From Alkalibacter rhizosphaerae (GTDB lineage: Bacteria; Bacillota; Clostridia; Eubacteriales; Alkalibacteraceae): a stretch of 64,000 nt of DNA. The stretch's first letter is position 1, and the number at the start of each line of letters is the position of its first letter. The DNA lies in assembly GCF_017352215.1 (NCBI RefSeq), contig NZ_CP071444.1, positions 1,860,001 through 1,924,000 of the forward strand. The letters run 5' to 3'. Below are positions 6,997 to 45,323 of this stretch, one piece after another. The notes beneath the pieces are model-generated. The model ran no database searches, was not told the DNA's origin, and saw only the letters and a program-made list of their open reading frames with translations. The position numbers and the translations under genes were made by a program.

Positions 6997-7021
6997 CAAA
7001 GGACAAGGGAGGAATGAAAAA

Positions 7022-7492
7022 ATGTATAAAACGTCCATGGAATCCCCCATCGGAAAGCTTTGGATCGTTGCCGGCGAGGAAGGGATCTGCCGCATCGTCT
7101 TTGGGAAAGAACCACAAGAGAAAATGGAAGCAAAGACTACGGATCTCCTTGTGCAGTGCATGATCCAGCTGGATGAGTATTTCTCGGGAAAACGCCGGGA
7201 GTTTGACATTCCCCTGGTGCCGGATTCCACGCCCTTTCAACGACGGGTATATGATCGATTGCTGGCCATTCCCTATGGCCAGACCCAATCCTACAAAGAC
7301 ATTGCCATAGCCGTCGGATCCCCTAAAGGGATGCGGGCGGTGGGAGGAGCCAACAACAAAAATCCCATACCCATCATCATACCCTGTCACCGGGTCATTG
7401 GAGCAGATGGCCGTTTGATCGGGTACGGAGGAGGAGTCTCCATCAAAAAATGGTTGTTGGATCATGAAAAAGCCCATAAGGATCATTCTTGA
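7022..7492 (+). CDS. ogt: Methylated-DNA-[protein]-cysteine S-methyltransferase
   Basis: A 156-residue DNA repair protein that transfers the O6-alkyl group from guanine to its own cysteine in a single-use reaction. The acceptor Cys122 is in the invariant PCHRV motif, preceded by the Arg-finger helix region PYGQTQSYKDIA and GGANNKNPIPIIIP. The N-terminal half is the short RNase-H-like domain. GGGAGGAA lies 7 bases before the ATG. It is a single gene, divergent from fba. Its stop codon overlaps the -35 box of the promoter for the following structured RNA. Confidence 0.95.
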   Translation: MYKTSMESPIGKLWIVAGEEGICRIVFGKEPQEKMEAKTTDLLVQCMIQLDEYFSGKRREFDIPLVPDSTPFQRRVYDRLLAIPYGQTQSYKDIAIAVGSPKGMRAVGGANNKNPIPIIIPCHRVIGADGRLIGYGGGVSIKKWLLDHEKAHKDHS

Positions 7493-7517
7493 CGAATCAT
7501 GCGGAAGGCTCTATAAT
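7489..7517 (+). promoter_or_regulatory. Strong sigma-A promoter for the raiA-type RNA
   Basis: TTGACG (7489-7494), exactly 17 bases, TATAAT (7512-7517). The predicted start is near 7524. The -35 hexamer overlaps the ogt stop codon TGA at 7490-7492. Confidence 0.8.
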
Positions 7518-7523
7518 GAAAGC

Positions 7524-7721
7524 ACCTTCAGGTCTGTGGTTGAAAATCGATGCCAGTCGCAGGCGAAACGATCCACGTAAGGCATGCAAAATGCATGCTG
7601 ATCATGGTGCGGCCTAGATGTAAGACCGTCCAACAACAGTTGAGAGGAGCAAGTAGTGAGGCGATCCCGAGCGAAACTTCCAGACGGCGAGTGTGGGGGC
7701 AAAGACCAGGTCAGCTGAAGG
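7524..7721 (+). ncRNA. raiA RNA: raiA-type structured noncoding RNA
   Basis: A ~200-base non-coding stretch bounded by a promoter and lying directly upstream of the raiA/hpf gene, the position that defines the raiA RNA motif of Bacillota and Actinomycetota. The two ends pair in nested helices: CCTTCAG (7525-7531) with CTGAAGG (7715-7721), and GGTCT (7531-7535) with AGACC (7703-7707). An internal hairpin GGCATGC / GCATGC is also visible. No credible reading frame occupies it. In clostridia this RNA is reported as abundant and linked to stationary-phase and sporulation physiology. The assignment rests on context and end pairing, not on a covariance-model search. Confidence 0.72.
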
Positions 7722-7726
7722 ACAAA

Positions 7727-7755
7727 GGATGTATCTCGTTATGCGGGATACATCC
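7727..7755 (+). terminator. Hairpin at the 3' end of the raiA-type RNA
   Basis: GGATGTATC (7727-7735) pairs perfectly with GATACATCC (7747-7755) across an 11-base loop. Only a weak T-rich tail follows, so it may be a 3' boundary or processing structure rather than an efficient terminator. Confidence 0.5.
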
Positions 7756-7789
7756 TCTGTGCATTTCTAATAATGAAAAGAAAAGGATA

Positions 7790-7817
7790 TGTTTCGTCTC
7801 TTTAGGGATAGGGTATA
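7790..7817 (+). promoter_or_regulatory. Possible sigma-B-like promoter for the hibernation factor gene
   Basis: TGTTTC (7790-7795) and GGGTATA (7811-7817), with 14-16 bases between the cores, resemble general-stress sigma-B promoters (GTTT ... GGGTA). No good sigma-A -35 box accompanies the TATAAA in the same region. Stress control of hpf is known in other Bacillota; here it is an inference. Confidence 0.4.
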
Positions 7818-7872
7818 AAAGTATAAACCAATCAGAGTCAAGACAAACATAAAGTCAAAGGAGTTGTTGTTT

Positions 7873-8403
7873 ATGCGTATCATCGTTTATGGAAAGAATA
7901 TCGACGTAACAGCGGGAATGAAGAGTATGTTGGAGAAGAAGTTGTCCAGGCTGGACAAATACTTCAACCCGGAAGTGGACGCTACTGCAACCATGAGCAC
8001 GCAAAAGGGCAAGCACATCCTGGAAGTGACCATACCGATCAACGGAACCATACTTCGAGCAGAAGAATCGTCAGACGACATGTACGCATCCATCGATTCT
8101 GCTGTAGACAAGTTGGAAGGTCAATTGCGAAAGCACAAAACAAAGTTGGAGAAAAAAATGAAGGATCACACATCCATTCGTTTGGATTTTTCCAGTGTTG
8201 CCAATGAACCGGCCTCCGAAGAACCTACAGTGGTCAAAACCAAGCGTTTTCCGATCAAGCCCATGTCTCCGGATGAAGCATCCCTGCAGATGGATCTGTT
8301 GGGACACAATTTCTTCGTATTTTTAAACAGTGAAAGCGACGAAGTCAACGTGGTCTACAAGCGAAAAGACGGAAATTACGGATTGATCGAACCTACCATT
8401 TAA
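7873..8403 (+). CDS. hpf: Ribosome hibernation promoting factor, long form (HPF/RaiA)
   Basis: A 176-residue protein that dimerises 70S ribosomes into 100S particles in resting cells. Residues ~1-95 are the HPF/RaiA beta-alpha-beta-beta-beta-alpha domain that sits in the decoding centre (MRIIVYGKNIDVTAGMKSMLEKKLSRL). A basic linker follows, and residues ~118-176 are the C-terminal dimerisation domain with KRFPIKPMSPDEASLQMDLLGHNFFVF. The long form is typical of Bacillota. The ATG at 7873 has AAAGGAG 9 bases upstream; TTG codons at 7864 and 7867 are less likely. The raiA-type RNA lies just upstream, and a strong terminator follows. Confidence 0.95.
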   Translation: MRIIVYGKNIDVTAGMKSMLEKKLSRLDKYFNPEVDATATMSTQKGKHILEVTIPINGTILRAEESSDDMYASIDSAVDKLEGQLRKHKTKLEKKMKDHTSIRLDFSSVANEPASEEPTVVKTKRFPIKPMSPDEASLQMDLLGHNFFVFLNSESDEVNVVYKRKDGNYGLIEPTI

Positions 8404-8432
8404 CACAAGACATAGAATAGGATTGGAAGTTG

Positions 8433-8465
8433 CGCCTCTTTCTTGAAAGAAAGAGGCGTTTTTTT
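8433..8465 (+). terminator. Intrinsic terminator after hpf
   Basis: CGCCTCTTTC (8433-8442), loop TTGAAA, GAAAGAGGCG (8449-8458), then seven T residues. Confidence 0.88.
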
Positions 8466-8494
8466 GATTCTTCCTCCTGTATTCGAAATACCTT

Positions 8495-8523
8495 TTCAGT
8501 TTGCCTTCCAGTTGTGTTATAAT
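8495..8523 (+). promoter_or_regulatory. Promoter of the conserved gene at 8574, extended -10 type
   Basis: TGTTATAAT (8515-8523) gives an extended -10 element. TTCAGT (8495-8500) is a weak -35 box at a 17-base distance. Confidence 0.6.
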
Positions 8524-8537
8524 TATTAACGTTAATA
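8524..8537 (+). promoter_or_regulatory. Palindromic operator candidate at the transcription start
   Basis: TATTAACGTTAATA is a perfect 14-base palindrome immediately downstream of the extended -10 box, covering the expected +1. A bound repressor there would block initiation. The cognate regulator is unknown. Confidence 0.45.
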
Positions 8538-8573
8538 GGTTCCGTCATCTTGTGTTATGAGGAGGTTGCTTTG

Positions 8574-9200
8574 TTGGAAACAGAGAGAAGAACTAGAGAG
8601 ATCGAGGAGTACATCAATCGCATTCAAAGTGTGATCAATTCCAGAGTCGTCATGGATTCCAATGAACAGATCATTGAGATCCACATTTTGGCCAACAGCA
8701 CTCGAGCGGCCAAACAAATCACAAGAGATGTACAATCTGTTTTGATGGCGGGCTTGGACATGCCTGTGGATCACAAAGTCATCAGTGTAGCTCAAGTATA
8801 CGATGAGGACGCACTAACCATCCCCAGACTGACCATACAATCAGTGGAATACGCCACGTCGGCCATGGAGGCGAAAGCCAAAGTCGTATTGGAATTCAAC
8901 GGAGCCCTGTATGAAGGGATCGCTTATGGAGTGAAGACATCCAATCAGTGTCATCGAACTGTGGCCCAAGCCACTTTGGAGGCAGTGGAATCGTTTTTAG
9001 AGAAAACCTTGAAATTTGTTGTGGAAGAGATCAAGACCGTGCCCATGGCTTCCAAAGAAGTGGTGGTTTCCGGCATTTCTCTGATCCAGAACAACTCGGA
9101 AAAATTATTGATCGGCAAATGCATTGTCGATAGTGATCTCCACAGCGCAATAACAAAATCCGTATTGGATGCGATCAATAGAACCATCCAAATCGTGTAA
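8574..9200 (+). CDS. Conserved protein of unknown function
   Basis: About 208 residues, probably starting at TTG 8574 (a second TTG lies at 8571), with AGGAGG at 8560-8565. I do not recognise the family. It contains what look like two related alpha/beta units: one ends in EIHILANSTRAAKQITRDVQSVL, and another runs through KAKVVLEFNGALYEGIAYGV to the helix TVAQATLEAVESFL. A third strand-rich part follows (VVVSGISLIQNN). There is no signal peptide, membrane segment or metal motif. It has its own promoter with a palindromic site over the start, so it is probably a regulated single-gene unit. Confidence 0.6.
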   Translation: METERRTREIEEYINRIQSVINSRVVMDSNEQIIEIHILANSTRAAKQITRDVQSVLMAGLDMPVDHKVISVAQVYDEDALTIPRLTIQSVEYATSAMEAKAKVVLEFNGALYEGIAYGVKTSNQCHRTVAQATLEAVESFLEKTLKFVVEEIKTVPMASKEVVVSGISLIQNNSEKLLIGKCIVDSDLHSAITKSVLDAINRTIQIV

Positions 9201-9220
9201 AACAGTTTAATAAGGTCGGC

Positions 9221-9271
9221 ATGAAAAAAACATTTGGTACTTTAAGCGAAGCGGTGAAGATTGTTTACTAG
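9221..9271 (+). CDS. Putative 16-residue leader peptide
   Basis: ATG at 9221 with AAGG 5 bases upstream (inside the left arm of the inverted repeat) encodes MKKTFGTLSEAVKIVY followed by TAG. It may be an amphipathic leader peptide translated ahead of the 26-residue peptide. It is very short and could be coincidental. Confidence 0.3.
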   Translation: MKKTFGTLSEAVKIVY

Positions 9272-9317
9272 CGAGAACAGTCCCTATTATTTCAAACGAT
9301 AATAAGGGGGCATTCAC

Positions 9318-9398
9318 ATGAAAGCTAAAGTAATCAAAGTGATGATGGTATTACTTTCTTTAGTCATGGCTGCAGGCGCAGGCTTTAAACTAGTTTAA
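9318..9398 (+). CDS. Putative 26-residue hydrophobic membrane peptide
   Basis: ATG at 9318 with AAGGGGG 8 bases upstream encodes MKAKVIKVMMVLLSLVMAAG plus AGFKLV and a TAA stop. Three N-terminal lysines followed by one hydrophobic stretch resemble a single membrane helix or signal-like peptide. The ribosome site lies in the 3' arm of a predicted hairpin (CCCTATTAT / ATAATAAGGG), which could block translation, and the stop codon lies in another hairpin. Candidates are a type I toxin-like peptide, a signalling peptide or a sensor peptide for the downstream HD-GYP gene. No family is recognised. Confidence 0.45.
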   Translation: MKAKVIKVMMVLLSLVMAAGAGFKLV

Positions 9399-9459
9399 GC
9401 ATTACATGCCGACCTTGTTATTATATCCAGCATGCAATCTTTAGAAGGGATTTGTGCAA

Positions 9460-10722
9460 ATGGCGCCCTTAAATAAGCAAACAAAGATTTTTTTGACAGC
9501 AGTGGTTTTTATTGCATTGGCACTGTCCGTATTTTTATTCATGAAATACCCCATACGATGGCAATTTGATTTTTTCGGGTTTATTATTTTTACGGTAATT
9601 GCGGAGTCATTGGTTATATTCACTCCCAATCGAGGGGGCGTAACACTGGGTTTCGGATTGATCCTCCCGGTTGGTATCATATTTGGACCATCCAGCGCCA
9701 TCATTTGTGCAGCCATTGGGAATTTGTTGGCAGTTTACAAAATGAATGGGGAATATAAGCATCTTTTAAGCATTGAAGCTTTTAAGACGATTGCCAACAC
9801 GTCAAACTATGTGATCAGTGCCGGACTAAGTTCGTATTTTTATACTTTGATCAATCGGGGCATTGGGATCCAAAGTGTTTACAATTCCATGTTGCTCATG
9901 CTGCTATCGGCAATGGTTTTTATTGTTACGAATATATTTATCACAGGAAATTTCATCATAAAATTAACGGATCACGATGCAAAAGAGGTTTGGAAAGAAA
10001 ATTTTAGTGGCTTGATCCCCAATGTATTGGGAGTCAGCGCCATCAGCATCATCATTGCATTGGCCTATTTGAATTTCGGCATTGAGTCCATCATCGTTTT
10101 ATTTTTTCCCTATCTTTTGATCCGCTATTCCTTCCAGTTGGTTTTCGACATGCGGGAAGCATACTTGAATACCATCAAAGCACTATCTTCCGCACTGGAA
10201 GAAAAGGACCCTTATACGAAAGGCCACTCGGAGCGAGTGGAAAAATACAGCGCATTGCTGGCCAAGGAACTAGGCCTCAACATTGACATGCAACAACTTC
10301 AATATGCAGCCATTTTCCATGACATCGGAAAAATAGGCATATACGATACGATCTTAAACAAGCCGGGGAAGTTGACGGAAGAGGAATTTGAAATGATCAA
10401 GCAACATCCGGTAAAGGGAATGAATATTCTGGGTAATGTGGGTTTCTTGAAGAAAGCAACGGAGATCATCGGCGCCCATCATGAATATCTGGATGGCAGT
10501 GGCTATCCCAAAGGATTGAAATCCTTTGAAATACCCATAGAAGCAAAGATCATCACGGTGGTCGACATCTATGACGCCGTCACCACCGATCGGCCTTATC
10601 GAAAAGCATTGTCGGAAGAAGAGGCCATCGATATATTACGCAAAGAAGCCGGTACGCGGCTGGATCCACTGCTGGTGGATGCGTTCATCAAACTTCATCG
10701 TGAAGGCAGGTTGATCAAATGA
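9460..10722 (+). CDS. Membrane-anchored HD-GYP domain phosphodiesterase
   Basis: A 420-residue protein. Residues ~1-225 hold about 6-8 membrane segments resembling an MASE-like sensor region. Residues ~235-420 are an HD-GYP domain, which in characterised members hydrolyses cyclic di-GMP or related dinucleotides. Visible metal and catalytic motifs are GHSERVEKYSALLAKEL, AAIFHDIGKIGIYDTILNKP, the HHE of AHHEYLDGSGYPKGL (which contains GYP), and VVDIYDAVTTDRPYR. All key residues appear intact, so it is probably active. ATG at 9460 is preferred over GTG 9454 because AGAAGGGA lies 9 bases before it. It overlaps the DUF5317 gene by 4 bases (ATGA). Confidence 0.88.
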   Translation: MAPLNKQTKIFLTAVVFIALALSVFLFMKYPIRWQFDFFGFIIFTVIAESLVIFTPNRGGVTLGFGLILPVGIIFGPSSAIICAAIGNLLAVYKMNGEYKHLLSIEAFKTIANTSNYVISAGLSSYFYTLINRGIGIQSVYNSMLLMLLSAMVFIVTNIFITGNFIIKLTDHDAKEVWKENFSGLIPNVLGVSAISIIIALAYLNFGIESIIVLFFPYLLIRYSFQLVFDMREAYLNTIKALSSALEEKDPYTKGHSERVEKYSALLAKELGLNIDMQQLQYAAIFHDIGKIGIYDTILNKPGKLTEEEFEMIKQHPVKGMNILGNVGFLKKATEIIGAHHEYLDGSGYPKGLKSFEIPIEAKIITVVDIYDAVTTDRPYRKALSEEEAIDILRKEAGTRLDPLLVDAFIKLHREGRLIK

Positions 10723-12458
10723 TTGCTATACTGATGCTGATCGCCATCATCATCGGGTACATCCGAAAAGGAAAATTGCGAAACCTATCCAACATCACCA
10801 TCAAATTGGTGCCACTACTCATCCTTGCATTTTTATTGCAGGGGTCCATCTATTTGGCATATGTTTACGATATTGCCGTTATTCAGGACTTCGACATCCT
10901 GATCCATTTTGTCAGCTATATCCTGCTTTTTGCAGCGTTGATGAGCAATTTTGACAACAAGTGGTTTGTGGTGATGACATTGGGCATGATCATGAATTTC
11001 CTGGTCATCTTCCTCAATGGAGGCCGAATGCCAGTGTCCGTGGATGCGGCGGAGGCCATTGGACTGGGAGAAGGATTGGAACTTCTTTTTGCCAGAAGGG
11101 CCGGTACCCACCAGCCATTGACAGAAGGCATGCTCTTGTGGTATTTGGCCGACATCATACCGATCCCATTTCCATCGGTGGCATCTTTTTTCAACAATAT
11201 CTACAGCATTGGTGATTTTTTCATTTACGGGGGGGTCATGGGTGTTATTCAAAGCGCCATGGTCAGAGATGGTTCCGATCAAGAAGTGGCGGAAAACTTG
11301 GATGTACTGCTGGAAGAAGAACTCATGACGGACAAGGCTGCCGCAGCACTCTTTGATGACGAAGTGAACGAAGAGGAAGTAGTGCGGCTGCGTGAATTGA
11401 GAAAACGAAGAGAAGAAGAGACCCGCCGGATCTTTCGAAGTGAAGCAGAGGAATATTTCGATGAAAAACCTTCTGCACCATCCATGGATGAAGATGAAAC
11501 TATTGCTATTCCTTTGGAGATGATGCACAAACAGGAAGACCAGGATAGCACGACCAAGGTCGAAGTCGAGGAAATAGAATCGAATATTCTACCATCGACG
11601 CCGGAAGAAGTAGTGGAGCCGGCAAGTGTCCCCGATCTCTCCCTTGAATCAAAACCTGAAATTGAAGGGAAAAAGGAAGAAGTCTCGGAACCGGATTGGA
11701 AGCTCTATACCCAAGATTTTGCAAATGCTTCATTGATCGGTTCTTCCCAACTGGAAGACCAGATCGTCAAAGGCGAAAACTATTCAGAAGAGGATCTACG
11801 CCAATATCGAAAATATTACACCAAGCCTCTTCACGAACGGATGGTCATTGATCTGGAGTCTGACGGGTACGATTGGAGGGAAAAACCAGCAGAACCAAAA
11901 GAAGAGGCACCTCCAGTTGAAGATCATCAAGAAGAACCGAAGCCCCAGGAAACGACAAGCAGTGATCTGCCCATCGATACCACCCATCCTTTTGTCATCG
12001 TCGATGGACGGATCGTGGAGAACACACACTACAAAAAGGCACATGGACCGGTTCAAGCAGAGGCAACCAACGGACCGGTGGCCTGGGAAGCCGTCAGCAA
12101 GCCCAGAGAGAAAACCCAGGAGCACATACCAACCTTTACGGAAATGGCGGAAGAATCAATAGAGGAACCACCTATAGAGCCGGTTGTGGAACCGGAGAAA
12201 ACCGATTTGGAAGAATTGCCGGATGAAACCTTGGACGAAAGATCCGATCCAGGGCCGGTGGAAGAACCAGTCAACGGTTGGTCTTCGCCGGAGGAGGAAG
12301 AGGAACTGGCTCCTTCTGGAAACATTCTGCAGAAGTTGCATGATGAAGACCGGATCAATCTCATGAAGAAGATGAAAGAACGAAAAGAAAAAGGATACAG
12401 CCTGGTACAGGTAAAAGTGGGGGAGAAAACCATAACCTTTTGGAAAAAAGACTTGTGA
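10719..12458 (+). CDS. DUF5317-like membrane protein with long acidic C-terminal region
   Basis: A 579-residue protein. Residues ~1-185 contain about five membrane segments and resemble DUF5317, a family I associate with HD-GYP genes (MIAILMLIAIIIGYIRKGKL at the start, LNGGRMPVSVDAAEAIGL, and an IYSIGDFFIYGGV segment). Residues ~190-560 are rich in Glu, Pro and Lys and probably disordered, with no recognisable domain. The end is a short basic segment (MKKMKERKEKGYSLVQVKVG). The ATGA overlap with the HD-GYP gene implies translational coupling. The long acidic tail is unusual for this family, whose members are mostly about 180 residues. Function unknown. Confidence 0.68.
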   Translation: MIAILMLIAIIIGYIRKGKLRNLSNITIKLVPLLILAFLLQGSIYLAYVYDIAVIQDFDILIHFVSYILLFAALMSNFDNKWFVVMTLGMIMNFLVIFLNGGRMPVSVDAAEAIGLGEGLELLFARRAGTHQPLTEGMLLWYLADIIPIPFPSVASFFNNIYSIGDFFIYGGVMGVIQSAMVRDGSDQEVAENLDVLLEEELMTDKAAAALFDDEVNEEEVVRLRELRKRREEETRRIFRSEAEEYFDEKPSAPSMDEDETIAIPLEMMHKQEDQDSTTKVEVEEIESNILPSTPEEVVEPASVPDLSLESKPEIEGKKEEVSEPDWKLYTQDFANASLIGSSQLEDQIVKGENYSEEDLRQYRKYYTKPLHERMVIDLESDGYDWREKPAEPKEEAPPVEDHQEEPKPQETTSSDLPIDTTHPFVIVDGRIVENTHYKKAHGPVQAEATNGPVAWEAVSKPREKTQEHIPTFTEMAEESIEEPPIEPVVEPEKTDLEELPDETLDERSDPGPVEEPVNGWSSPEEEEELAPSGNILQKLHDEDRINLMKKMKERKEKGYSLVQVKVGEKTITFWKKDL

Positions 12459-12474
12459 TCATGCAGGTCTTTTT
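12445..12474 (+). terminator. Intrinsic terminator overlapping the DUF5317 gene stop
   Basis: AAAAAGACTTG (12445-12455) pairs with CAGGTCTTTTT (12464-12474) with one G-T wobble, and ends in a T-tract. The left arm is the last coding sequence of the preceding gene. Confidence 0.65.
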
Positions 12475-12499
12475 CTTAAGAAAAGAATGATGTTGGTTA

Positions 12500-12508
12500 T
12501 GTTATAAT
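12500..12508 (+). promoter_or_regulatory. Extended -10 promoter of secA
   Basis: TGTTATAAT is a perfect extended -10 element 40 bases before the secA start. No good -35 box is visible at 16-18 bases. Confidence 0.55.
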
Positions 12509-12547
12509 ATACGTTGCAATAAAATACCCATTGATCGAGGTGAAACC

Positions 12548-15061
<2,514 letters not shown>

Positions 15062-19121: not shown

Positions 19122-19143
19122 TCTCATTGAAAATAAAATAACG

Positions 19144-19250
19144 ATCTTCAGGGCAGGGTGAAATTCCCGACCGGCGGTACAGTCCGCGAGCCGAAAGGCT
19201 GATCTGGTGCAATTCCAGAACCGACAGTAAAGTCTGGATGGGAGAGGATG
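19144..19250 (+). promoter_or_regulatory. FMN riboswitch (RFN element)
   Basis: Contains the RFN signature segments AGGGCAGGGTGAAATTCCCG, ACCGGCGGT, CCGCGAGCC, then GATCTGGTGCAATTCCAGAA and CCGACAGTAAAGTCTGGATG. It is followed by a terminator hairpin and then ribU. In this class FMN binding favours termination, lowering riboflavin import when flavin is plentiful. Confidence 0.97.
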
Positions 19251-19265
19251 AACCAACGTTAGCAG

Positions 19266-45202: not shown

Positions 45203-45229
45203 TATAAAAATATCATTTATACAACAGAA

Positions 45230-45304
45230 CCTTCTTATATAAAATCAGGGATATGGCCTGAACGTCTCTACCGAAAAACCGGAAATTTTTCGACTATAAG
45301 AAGG
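45230..45304 (+). promoter_or_regulatory. Purine riboswitch, guanine type
   Basis: P1 arms CCTTCTTATA (45230-45239) and TATAAGAAGG (45295-45304) enclose the aptamer core, with GATATGG in J1/2-P2 and GTCTCTACC. The 3' junction reads GACTATA, with C at the specificity position, which marks guanine or hypoxanthine rather than adenine binding. It sits before guaB-guaA, fitting feedback control of GMP synthesis. Confidence 0.95.
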
Positions 45305-45323
45305 AAACATGCATATTCTTCGG

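Follow-up and report, generated by a model that had tools for sequence, protein, structure and literature searches.

An RNA element enclosing a micropeptide gene next to a membrane HD-GYP gene in Alkalibacter rhizosphaerae and other bacteria

The mRNAs of type I toxins such as hok and aapA1 encode a hydrophobic micropeptide, hide its ribosome site and pair their own ends. In Firmicutes, signalling peptides of the Phr, SHP/XIP and enterococcal pheromone types are made from signal-peptide-like precursors with a short C-terminal tail, which is often aromatic or hydrophobic. Structured leader RNAs with a small ORF have also been described, as the uORF/sORF motifs (PMC6429828) and the Downstream-peptide motif (PMC2864571). 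The locus analysed here lies in a stretch of 64,000 nucleotides from Alkalibacter rhizosphaerae (Clostridia, Eubacteriales; contig NZ_CP071444.1, positions 1,860,001 to 1,924,000 of the forward strand; hereafter the window, whose positions are used throughout). It resembles the motifs of those two papers in that a conserved structured RNA lies 5' of a conserved short coding sequence. It shares a hydrophobic micropeptide, a hidden ribosome site and the pairing of its ends with hok and aapA1, and in composition its peptide resembles the short-tailed, signal-peptide-like precursors of the Phr, SHP/XIP and pheromone peptides.

Layout and distribution of the locus

The conserved locus consists of a gene for a protein of about 215 aa, an RNA element with a micropeptide gene, and a membrane HD-GYP gene, in that order. 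In the window all three are read from the plus strand. The upstream gene (8571..9200) encodes 209 aa from a TTG at 8571, with a MamM-CTD-like N-terminal domain followed by a domain of the LeuA/citramalate-synthase regulatory type. The micropeptide gene (9318..9398) encodes 26 aa, MKAKVIKVMMVLLSLVMAAGAGFKLV, and the 420-aa downstream protein (9460..10722) combines MASE9 and HD-GYP domains, with the HD-GYP motifs intact. By sequence comparison, positions 9208-9420 are one member of an unnamed, widespread RNA element that has the micropeptide gene inside it.

The window's genome, a single 2.45-Mb contig, holds one copy of the element at E<=0.001; at E<=1 it gives four further matches of only 18-22 nt. 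When 61 genomes were searched at the DNA level, six members of the window's family proved to carry the element (E <= 1.2e-16), the next match elsewhere having an E of 0.003. HD-GYP orthologues led to copies in two other families, and a covariance model, R1, was built from nine cores. R1 matched 13 of 67 genomes of the order, of which 10 were real on reading, and 21 of 391 in a class sample, of which 19 were real; the false matches (G037, G006 and G027 in the order, G323 and G080 in the class) were dropped. R2, a second model based on 17 loci from beyond the window's family, picked out 41 of the 391 class genomes, 40 of them real once a match to a dockerin-like protein in G150 had been dropped, and 14 of 398 genomes in a phylum sample, all real on reading and 13 of them new. 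R2 misses the window family's four genomes in the class sample and scores the window copy weakly (E 0.48); it is R1 that ties this family together with the other lineages. Both models overlooked one element, in G421, which was spotted by eye (locus L182). The element thus recurs in many Clostridia; the total stands at 62 genomes, and the counts are lower bounds because the large samples were scored with stricter filters.

The element and its upstream gene go together closely. At E <= 1e-10 the upstream gene occurs in 45 of the 391 class-sample genomes and the element in all 45 (40 by R2, four by R1, one by eye), and the other 346 genomes gave three model matches, all judged false. In the order, class and phylum scans each genome listed with a match had a single one, and wherever both sides of a locus could be read, the same two genes flanked the element. 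In a plasmid collection the element had no match. Against Rfam release 15 (4227 families), window positions 9150-9480 gave no match at E values up to 10; at the gathering threshold, 20 further loci gave only one tRNA, outside the element.

Known RNAs occur elsewhere in the window. A raiA/ModT RNA (Rfam RF03072, 173 bits) lies at 7523-7723, 1.5 kb upstream of the element, followed directly by a gene that, from its raiA neighbour, we take to encode a ribosome hibernation factor-like protein. An FMN riboswitch (19140-19253) and a purine riboswitch (45215-45316) were both found at the gathering threshold, and a search of 7000-13000 found no tRNA or tmRNA. Just after the HD-GYP gene, 10719-12458 encodes a protein matching DUF5317 in its N-terminal part, with a long glutamate-rich C-terminal half; the gene after it is presumably SecA-like.

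Structure of the RNA element

A preliminary description of this region had noted a 12-base perfect inverted repeat enclosing about 205 bases. The repeat is real, with its arms at 9212-9223 and 9405-9416, but the 205 bases include the arms and 181 lie between them. When G-U pairs are counted, the repeat extends to a long-range closing stem of 16 bp, which we call P1, between 9208..9223 (5' strand) and 9405..9420 (3' strand). The plus-strand RNA of 9201-9425 has a minimum free energy (MFE) of -66 kcal/mol compared with a mean of -45.75 for shuffled sequences (z -5.06), and none of 200 shuffles was as good; the minus strand of the same segment has a fold z of -3.75. Like the LAGGA motif of the peptide and the neighbouring genes, P1 is absent from both covariance models. 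Since a search for the best stem always returns some stem, P1 was measured against shuffled controls. It beat all 40 shuffles in 55 of the 60 testable loci, and the mean best-stem score between the flanks (base pairs plus G-C pairs, 60 loci) was 20.9 compared with 10.9 in shuffles. At least one of the 40 shuffles was as good in L034 (1), L099 (1), L135 (1), L136 (3) and L143 (16). L143 fails because about 265 nt are inserted between its P1 5' strand and the core (at about 1240-1505, counted along the strand of the element); when the searched span is lengthened, P1 is seen to pair across the insertion all the same, with 11 bp. L142, at a contig end, was excluded from the P1 and peptide counts.

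The sequence of P1 varies by lineage while each 5' strand is complementary to its own 3' strand. The 59 loci compared have 54 different 5' strands, 8-26 bp long, and 34 of these share a GGYCG or GGCC core. Even in the window's family P1 has changed on both sides, GGTCGGC/GCCGACC in the window corresponding to GACCGGC/GCCGGTC in L033. The preliminary description had proposed a MITE among other readings, and inverted repeats that bound a small segment would suit a MITE or mobile cassette with terminal inverted repeats. We give this reading barely any weight, in view of the single copy in the window's own genome, the single match in each matched genome, the same gene neighbours in each readable locus and a repeat whose sequence differs between lineages yet stays complementary. 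P1 was also considered as an intrinsic terminator, but a U-rich stretch follows it in just 13 of 61 loci, so this function is not general.

The P1 3' strand starts a median of 13 nt past the stop codon of the micropeptide gene (quartiles 9 and 23, 59 loci), with L122 and L145 at 84-88 nt. Since P1 wraps the frame and its 3' strand lies so close behind the stop, a ribosome that finishes the peptide would be expected to disturb P1.

Inside P1, cores were located with the pattern AGCG[AGT]AG before motifs were counted. AGCGRAG occurs in 59 of 61 loci and the longer AGCGRAGCG in 45; in the window it reads AGCGAAGCG (9245..9253). The motif is unpaired in the family model, or it may form a mini-hairpin, since it can be read as GC-GNA-GC with A, G or U as the middle loop base. 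In three loci (L098, L099 and L100) an additional, AAGCGAAGA-like version of the core motif precedes AGCGRAGCG, some 20-30 nt ahead of the core. The P2 hairpin, GATTGTT/AACAGTC (9259..9282), was placed by homology, and its loop holds a second motif, UAGCGR (UAGCGA in the window, 9269-9274), which is found in 56 of 61 loci.

A further hairpin (9280..9311), present in both the MFE and the centroid structure of the window copy, sequesters the ribosome site of the peptide: the Shine-Dalgarno sequence AAGGGGG (9304..9310) lies inside its stem. The 26-residue frame with its ribosome site in a hairpin arm, as first described, is borne out, and the frame is conserved; 59 of 61 loci have a ribosome site when a loose pattern is applied. 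The consensus fold of the window's family, from six sequences, shows the same hairpin. P2 is missing from that consensus fold and from both the MFE and the centroid structure of the window copy, and in these six sequences the inner pairs are nearly invariant, no pair having changed on both sides, which speaks neither for nor against pairing. In other lineages a helix, P3, encloses P2; in the window's family a local CCC...GGG hairpin sequesters the ribosome site instead.

Across lineages, the two inner helices covary, and one of them hides the ribosome site of the peptide. In 58 aligned loci (57 distinct rows) with 13 pairs in P2 and P3, 117 cells had changed on both sides compared with 23.1 in shuffles (0 of 500 reached this number). 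The corresponding values were 92.4% and 76.1% for pairing cells, and 0.474 and 0.197 for the covariation score. None of the 500 shuffles reached any of five covariation measures, and when the partners were slid as a control, double-change cells never exceeded 35 and the score stayed at or below 0.109. Since the alignment had been fitted to this structure, the absolute numbers are biased in its favour. The rows omit the window (L031), L034 and L035, all with E > 0.05. Because the ribosome site is sequestered, we argue that translation of the peptide is conditional.

Two other features that had been pointed out are present in the window but are not general. A 16-residue frame (9221..9271) is not conserved: 23 of 61 loci have a start-codon frame that begins no more than 40 nt ahead of the core and reads through it, and both its length and its start codon vary, so that we judge it incidental. 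The minus-strand TATAAT just past the right repeat (9420-9425) has a counterpart, ATTATA near the end of P1, in only 5 of 61 loci, the window included, and is likewise taken to be incidental. This bears on the possibility of a type I toxin gene whose mRNA is silenced by pairing of its ends. Such a gene would account for a short, hydrophobic, lysine-led peptide, a hidden ribosome site and long-range pairing between 5' and 3' ends. It would not lead one to expect fixed syntenic partners in the same three-part locus, one match per genome or the lack of a conserved antisense -10 box; moreover a promoter scan, covering sigma-70-type sites only, found 2 sites compared with 3.1 expected, none of them at the TATAAT. 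We consider a toxin gene very improbable.

The micropeptide and its neighbours

The consensus of the micropeptide is M-K followed by a hydrophobic stretch, L-A-G-G-A and a short tail that often bears Trp. Anchoring by pattern forces some residues, and 8 of 60 peptides did not fit the pattern, so residues were counted in an anchor-free alignment of 58 unique sequences. In this alignment A(-4) occurs in 49, G/A(-3) in 49, G(-2) in 56 and A(-1) in 58, with L(-7) in 51 and a W column in the tail in 38. With a loose pattern, an AGGA-like motif is found in 58 of 60 peptides. K or R lies within residues 2-6 in 57 of 60 and acidic residues occur in 5 of 60, so that the composition would fit a signal peptide with a putative small-residue cleavage motif. 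Where the motif was placed by pattern, the tail after it has 5 residues in 43 of 52 peptides and 4, 6, 7 or 10 in the other 9; L135-L137 have a longer tail. An internal ATG (giving 21 aa) was taken as the start by the script in L037 and L121, and the L151 peptide is strongly diverged. Four peptides tested against Pfam and NCBIfam gave no family over the cut-off, and the window's peptide had no PHROGs match at E<=0.1.

Judged from codon changes, the micropeptide is under purifying selection. In 16 independent peptide pairs that had the same length and were at least 70% identical, 103.3 synonymous differences over 299 sites compare with 75.7 non-synonymous differences over 913 sites, a dN/dS of 0.19. 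This result tells against the idea of a riboswitch-like or protein-bound control RNA for which the small frame is merely the operon's first regulated gene. Such an RNA should have motifs that hardly vary, stems that covary and a hidden ribosome site, but the peptide sequence is itself conserved, P1 closes around the frame instead of the aptamer-like core, and no Rfam family matches; we regard it as distinctly unlikely. The preliminary description had proposed comparing conservation of the peptide with that of the stems, and both turn out to be kept in the relatives. Its suggestion of a peptide signal or an attenuator for the HD-GYP gene is favoured in outline, since the locus, the peptide, the stems and the HD-GYP partner appear from sequence to be conserved together.

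The downstream proteins (a set that omits L105 and L142) all match HD_5 in a profile scan (59 of 59), and 37 of 59 match MASE9. The window protein matches MASE9 (Pfam PF20972) at 35.9 bits, above a cut-off of 24.3. Of 41 relatives scanned, 7 have a single MASE9 match each, always at the element, while three of the ten element-bearing genomes (G009, G013 and G023) had no MASE9 match. The residues H287 D288, H340 H341 and G348 Y349 P350 are invariant, and the protein, modelled by AlphaFold2 with a mean pLDDT of 91.4, aligns with the c-di-GMP-bound structure 9rbz at Z 26.4. The downstream protein is predicted to be a membrane HD-GYP c-di-GMP phosphodiesterase.

In the model, S-components of ECF transporters for metal, riboflavin, folate, biotin and thiamin align with the MASE9 region (encoded by 9460-10119) at Z of about 10-15. 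The values were Z 14.6 for 4m58 (rmsd 3.4, 186 residues), 14.4 for 5kbw (rmsd 2.9, 158 residues) and 14.1 for 5d0y; Foldseek gave E values of 0.03 or worse for S-components. There is thus good but not final support, at the level of fold only, for a MASE9 membrane domain that models as an ECF S-component; it is not final because helical models can reach Z 14 by a common arrangement. An S-component-like MASE9 would hint that this c-di-GMP enzyme has a pocket for a small ligand.

The upstream protein (set without L116; further family copies are L152-L181) was modelled with a pLDDT of 92.9, and its two halves are covered separately by different alignments. With VIA-align, the N-terminal part aligns with the MamM CTD at Z of about 9, a score equalled by other proteins that share its arrangement. 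For the C-terminal half, the aligned structures are the regulatory domains of isoleucine-bound citramalate synthase (3f6h, Z 10.4, rmsd 3.0, 117 residues) and of LeuA. Foldseek returned LeuA (1sr9, E 1.2e-4) along with tandem dsRBD and PUR proteins; we do not claim RNA binding, because the two-domain dsRBD/PUR alignments superpose at an rmsd of 12-23. Pfam LeuA_dimer was matched by 9 of 60 upstream proteins at E<=0.1 (best 7.9e-6), and the window's own protein had no Pfam family over the cut-off. Weak PADLOC, DUF4435 and NCBIfam matches look like chance and were set aside. Given its modelled resemblance to amino-acid-binding regulatory domains, the upstream protein is an obvious candidate for the sensor or RNA reader.

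Proposed mechanism and relation to known systems

We propose, with confidence about evenly balanced, that the RNA gates the micropeptide, which would act on the S-component-like domain of the co-encoded HD-GYP phosphodiesterase and so tune c-di-GMP. The motifs AGCGRAGCG and UAGCGR, unpaired in the family model, would be the natural binding place for a ligand or protein, and their reading would gate translation of the peptide. With its K/R start, hydrophobic core and small-residue AGGA motif, the peptide may then enter the membrane, as a helix or after cleavage, and could act on the S-component-like sensor domain. Action on a membrane domain is favoured because the peptide sequence is kept with a membrane-type composition and each scanned locus has a membrane HD-GYP partner.

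Divergence of the hydrophobic part follows that of MASE when corrected for the HD domain and the upstream protein (partial rank r 0.28, p 0.0005, 57 loci), in line with this model, but it tracks the upstream protein equally (r 0.27), which we count against a peptide that acts on the sensor. For the tail, no relation to MASE divergence beyond the other proteins was found (r 0.03, p 0.26), nor one to the upstream protein; it follows the HD domain instead (r 0.17, p 0.0005), an unexplained result that the peptide-sensor model does not predict and that also counts against it. Further points against the model are the absence of the window copy from the covariation rows and of P2 from its MFE, the near-invariant inner pairs of its family, the three element-bearing genomes without a MASE9 match, and the caveats on the S-component alignments given above. 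It is conceivable, though in our view unlikely, that the micropeptide is an exported signal precursor, cleaved after AGGA so that usually five residues are left, which the S-component-like domain of the neighbouring HD-GYP protein would read directly, translation taking place only once a ligand or the upstream protein has opened the RNA cage; peptide and c-di-GMP would then be linked in a signalling system of a single step.

A leader or arrest peptide that works only in cis, the main rival, would explain the position of the frame equally well, and this too counts against the peptide-sensor model. Here a ribosome that translates the 25-30-codon frame or pauses on it would open P1 and alter expression of the HD-GYP gene, and the released peptide would have no job. 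The frame immediately precedes the HD-GYP gene and is embedded in RNA structures that might switch; the P1 3' strand, at a median of 13 nt past the stop, is within reach of a ribosome at the stop codon; and conservation is strongest in the C-terminal half of the peptide, where the best-kept residues mostly stand at a constant distance from the stop. The exit tunnel would hold the whole peptide. Nevertheless, this distance departs from 5 residues in 9 of 52 peptides and the tail is longer in L135-L137, P1 of the window copy does not overlap the HD-GYP ribosome site, and to our knowledge a membrane-type composition is unusual for leader peptides. On balance we rate a cis-only leader as possible, if somewhat doubtful.

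If the peptide does act on the HD-GYP sensor domain, about one in nine genomes of the class sample (45 of 391) would carry an RNA-peptide device, so far undescribed, that is coupled to a c-di-GMP phosphodiesterase with an S-component-like sensor, and there would be a concrete idea of what some MASE domains sense. The locus would also contribute two candidate families, one of structured RNAs and one of micropeptides, that match nothing in Rfam, Pfam, NCBIfam or PHROGs, and a few reporter constructs would be enough to test the mechanism. The element was not found described in the literature searched, and an earlier unnamed listing may exist; in the main texts of PMC8632094 and PMC8040213 the terms HD-GYP, HD domain and phosphohydrolase do not occur.

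Each of the closest described systems differs from the element in its arrangement. In contrast to the uORF/sORF and Downstream-peptide motifs, the long-range stem encloses the whole frame, and a membrane HD-GYP gene lies downstream in all 59 loci scanned. Unlike hok and aapA1, the element keeps a conserved operonic position between two constant partners, gives a single match per genome and lacks a conserved antisense -10 box. The neighbours of the peptide are a protein of about 215 aa and a membrane HD-GYP protein, and not a Rap, Rgg or PrgX receptor as for the Phr, SHP/XIP and pheromone peptides. The raiA/ModT RNA is likewise a widespread structured RNA of the same host group, found 1.5 kb upstream in the window, but it is a separate known family whose model has no match to the element. 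On the protein side, the comparison is with MASE9-HD-GYP proteins and ECF S-components, the downstream protein matching MASE9 and its membrane domain modelling as the S-component fold; MASE9 also occurs elsewhere (Thermotoga maritima, Thermus composti), and the new part is its pairing with the RNA-peptide element. Small ORFs in structured leaders are known, and what appears to be new is the stem-enclosed frame, the fixed gene triad and the S-component-like HD-GYP partner, which raise the possibility of a new signalling class.
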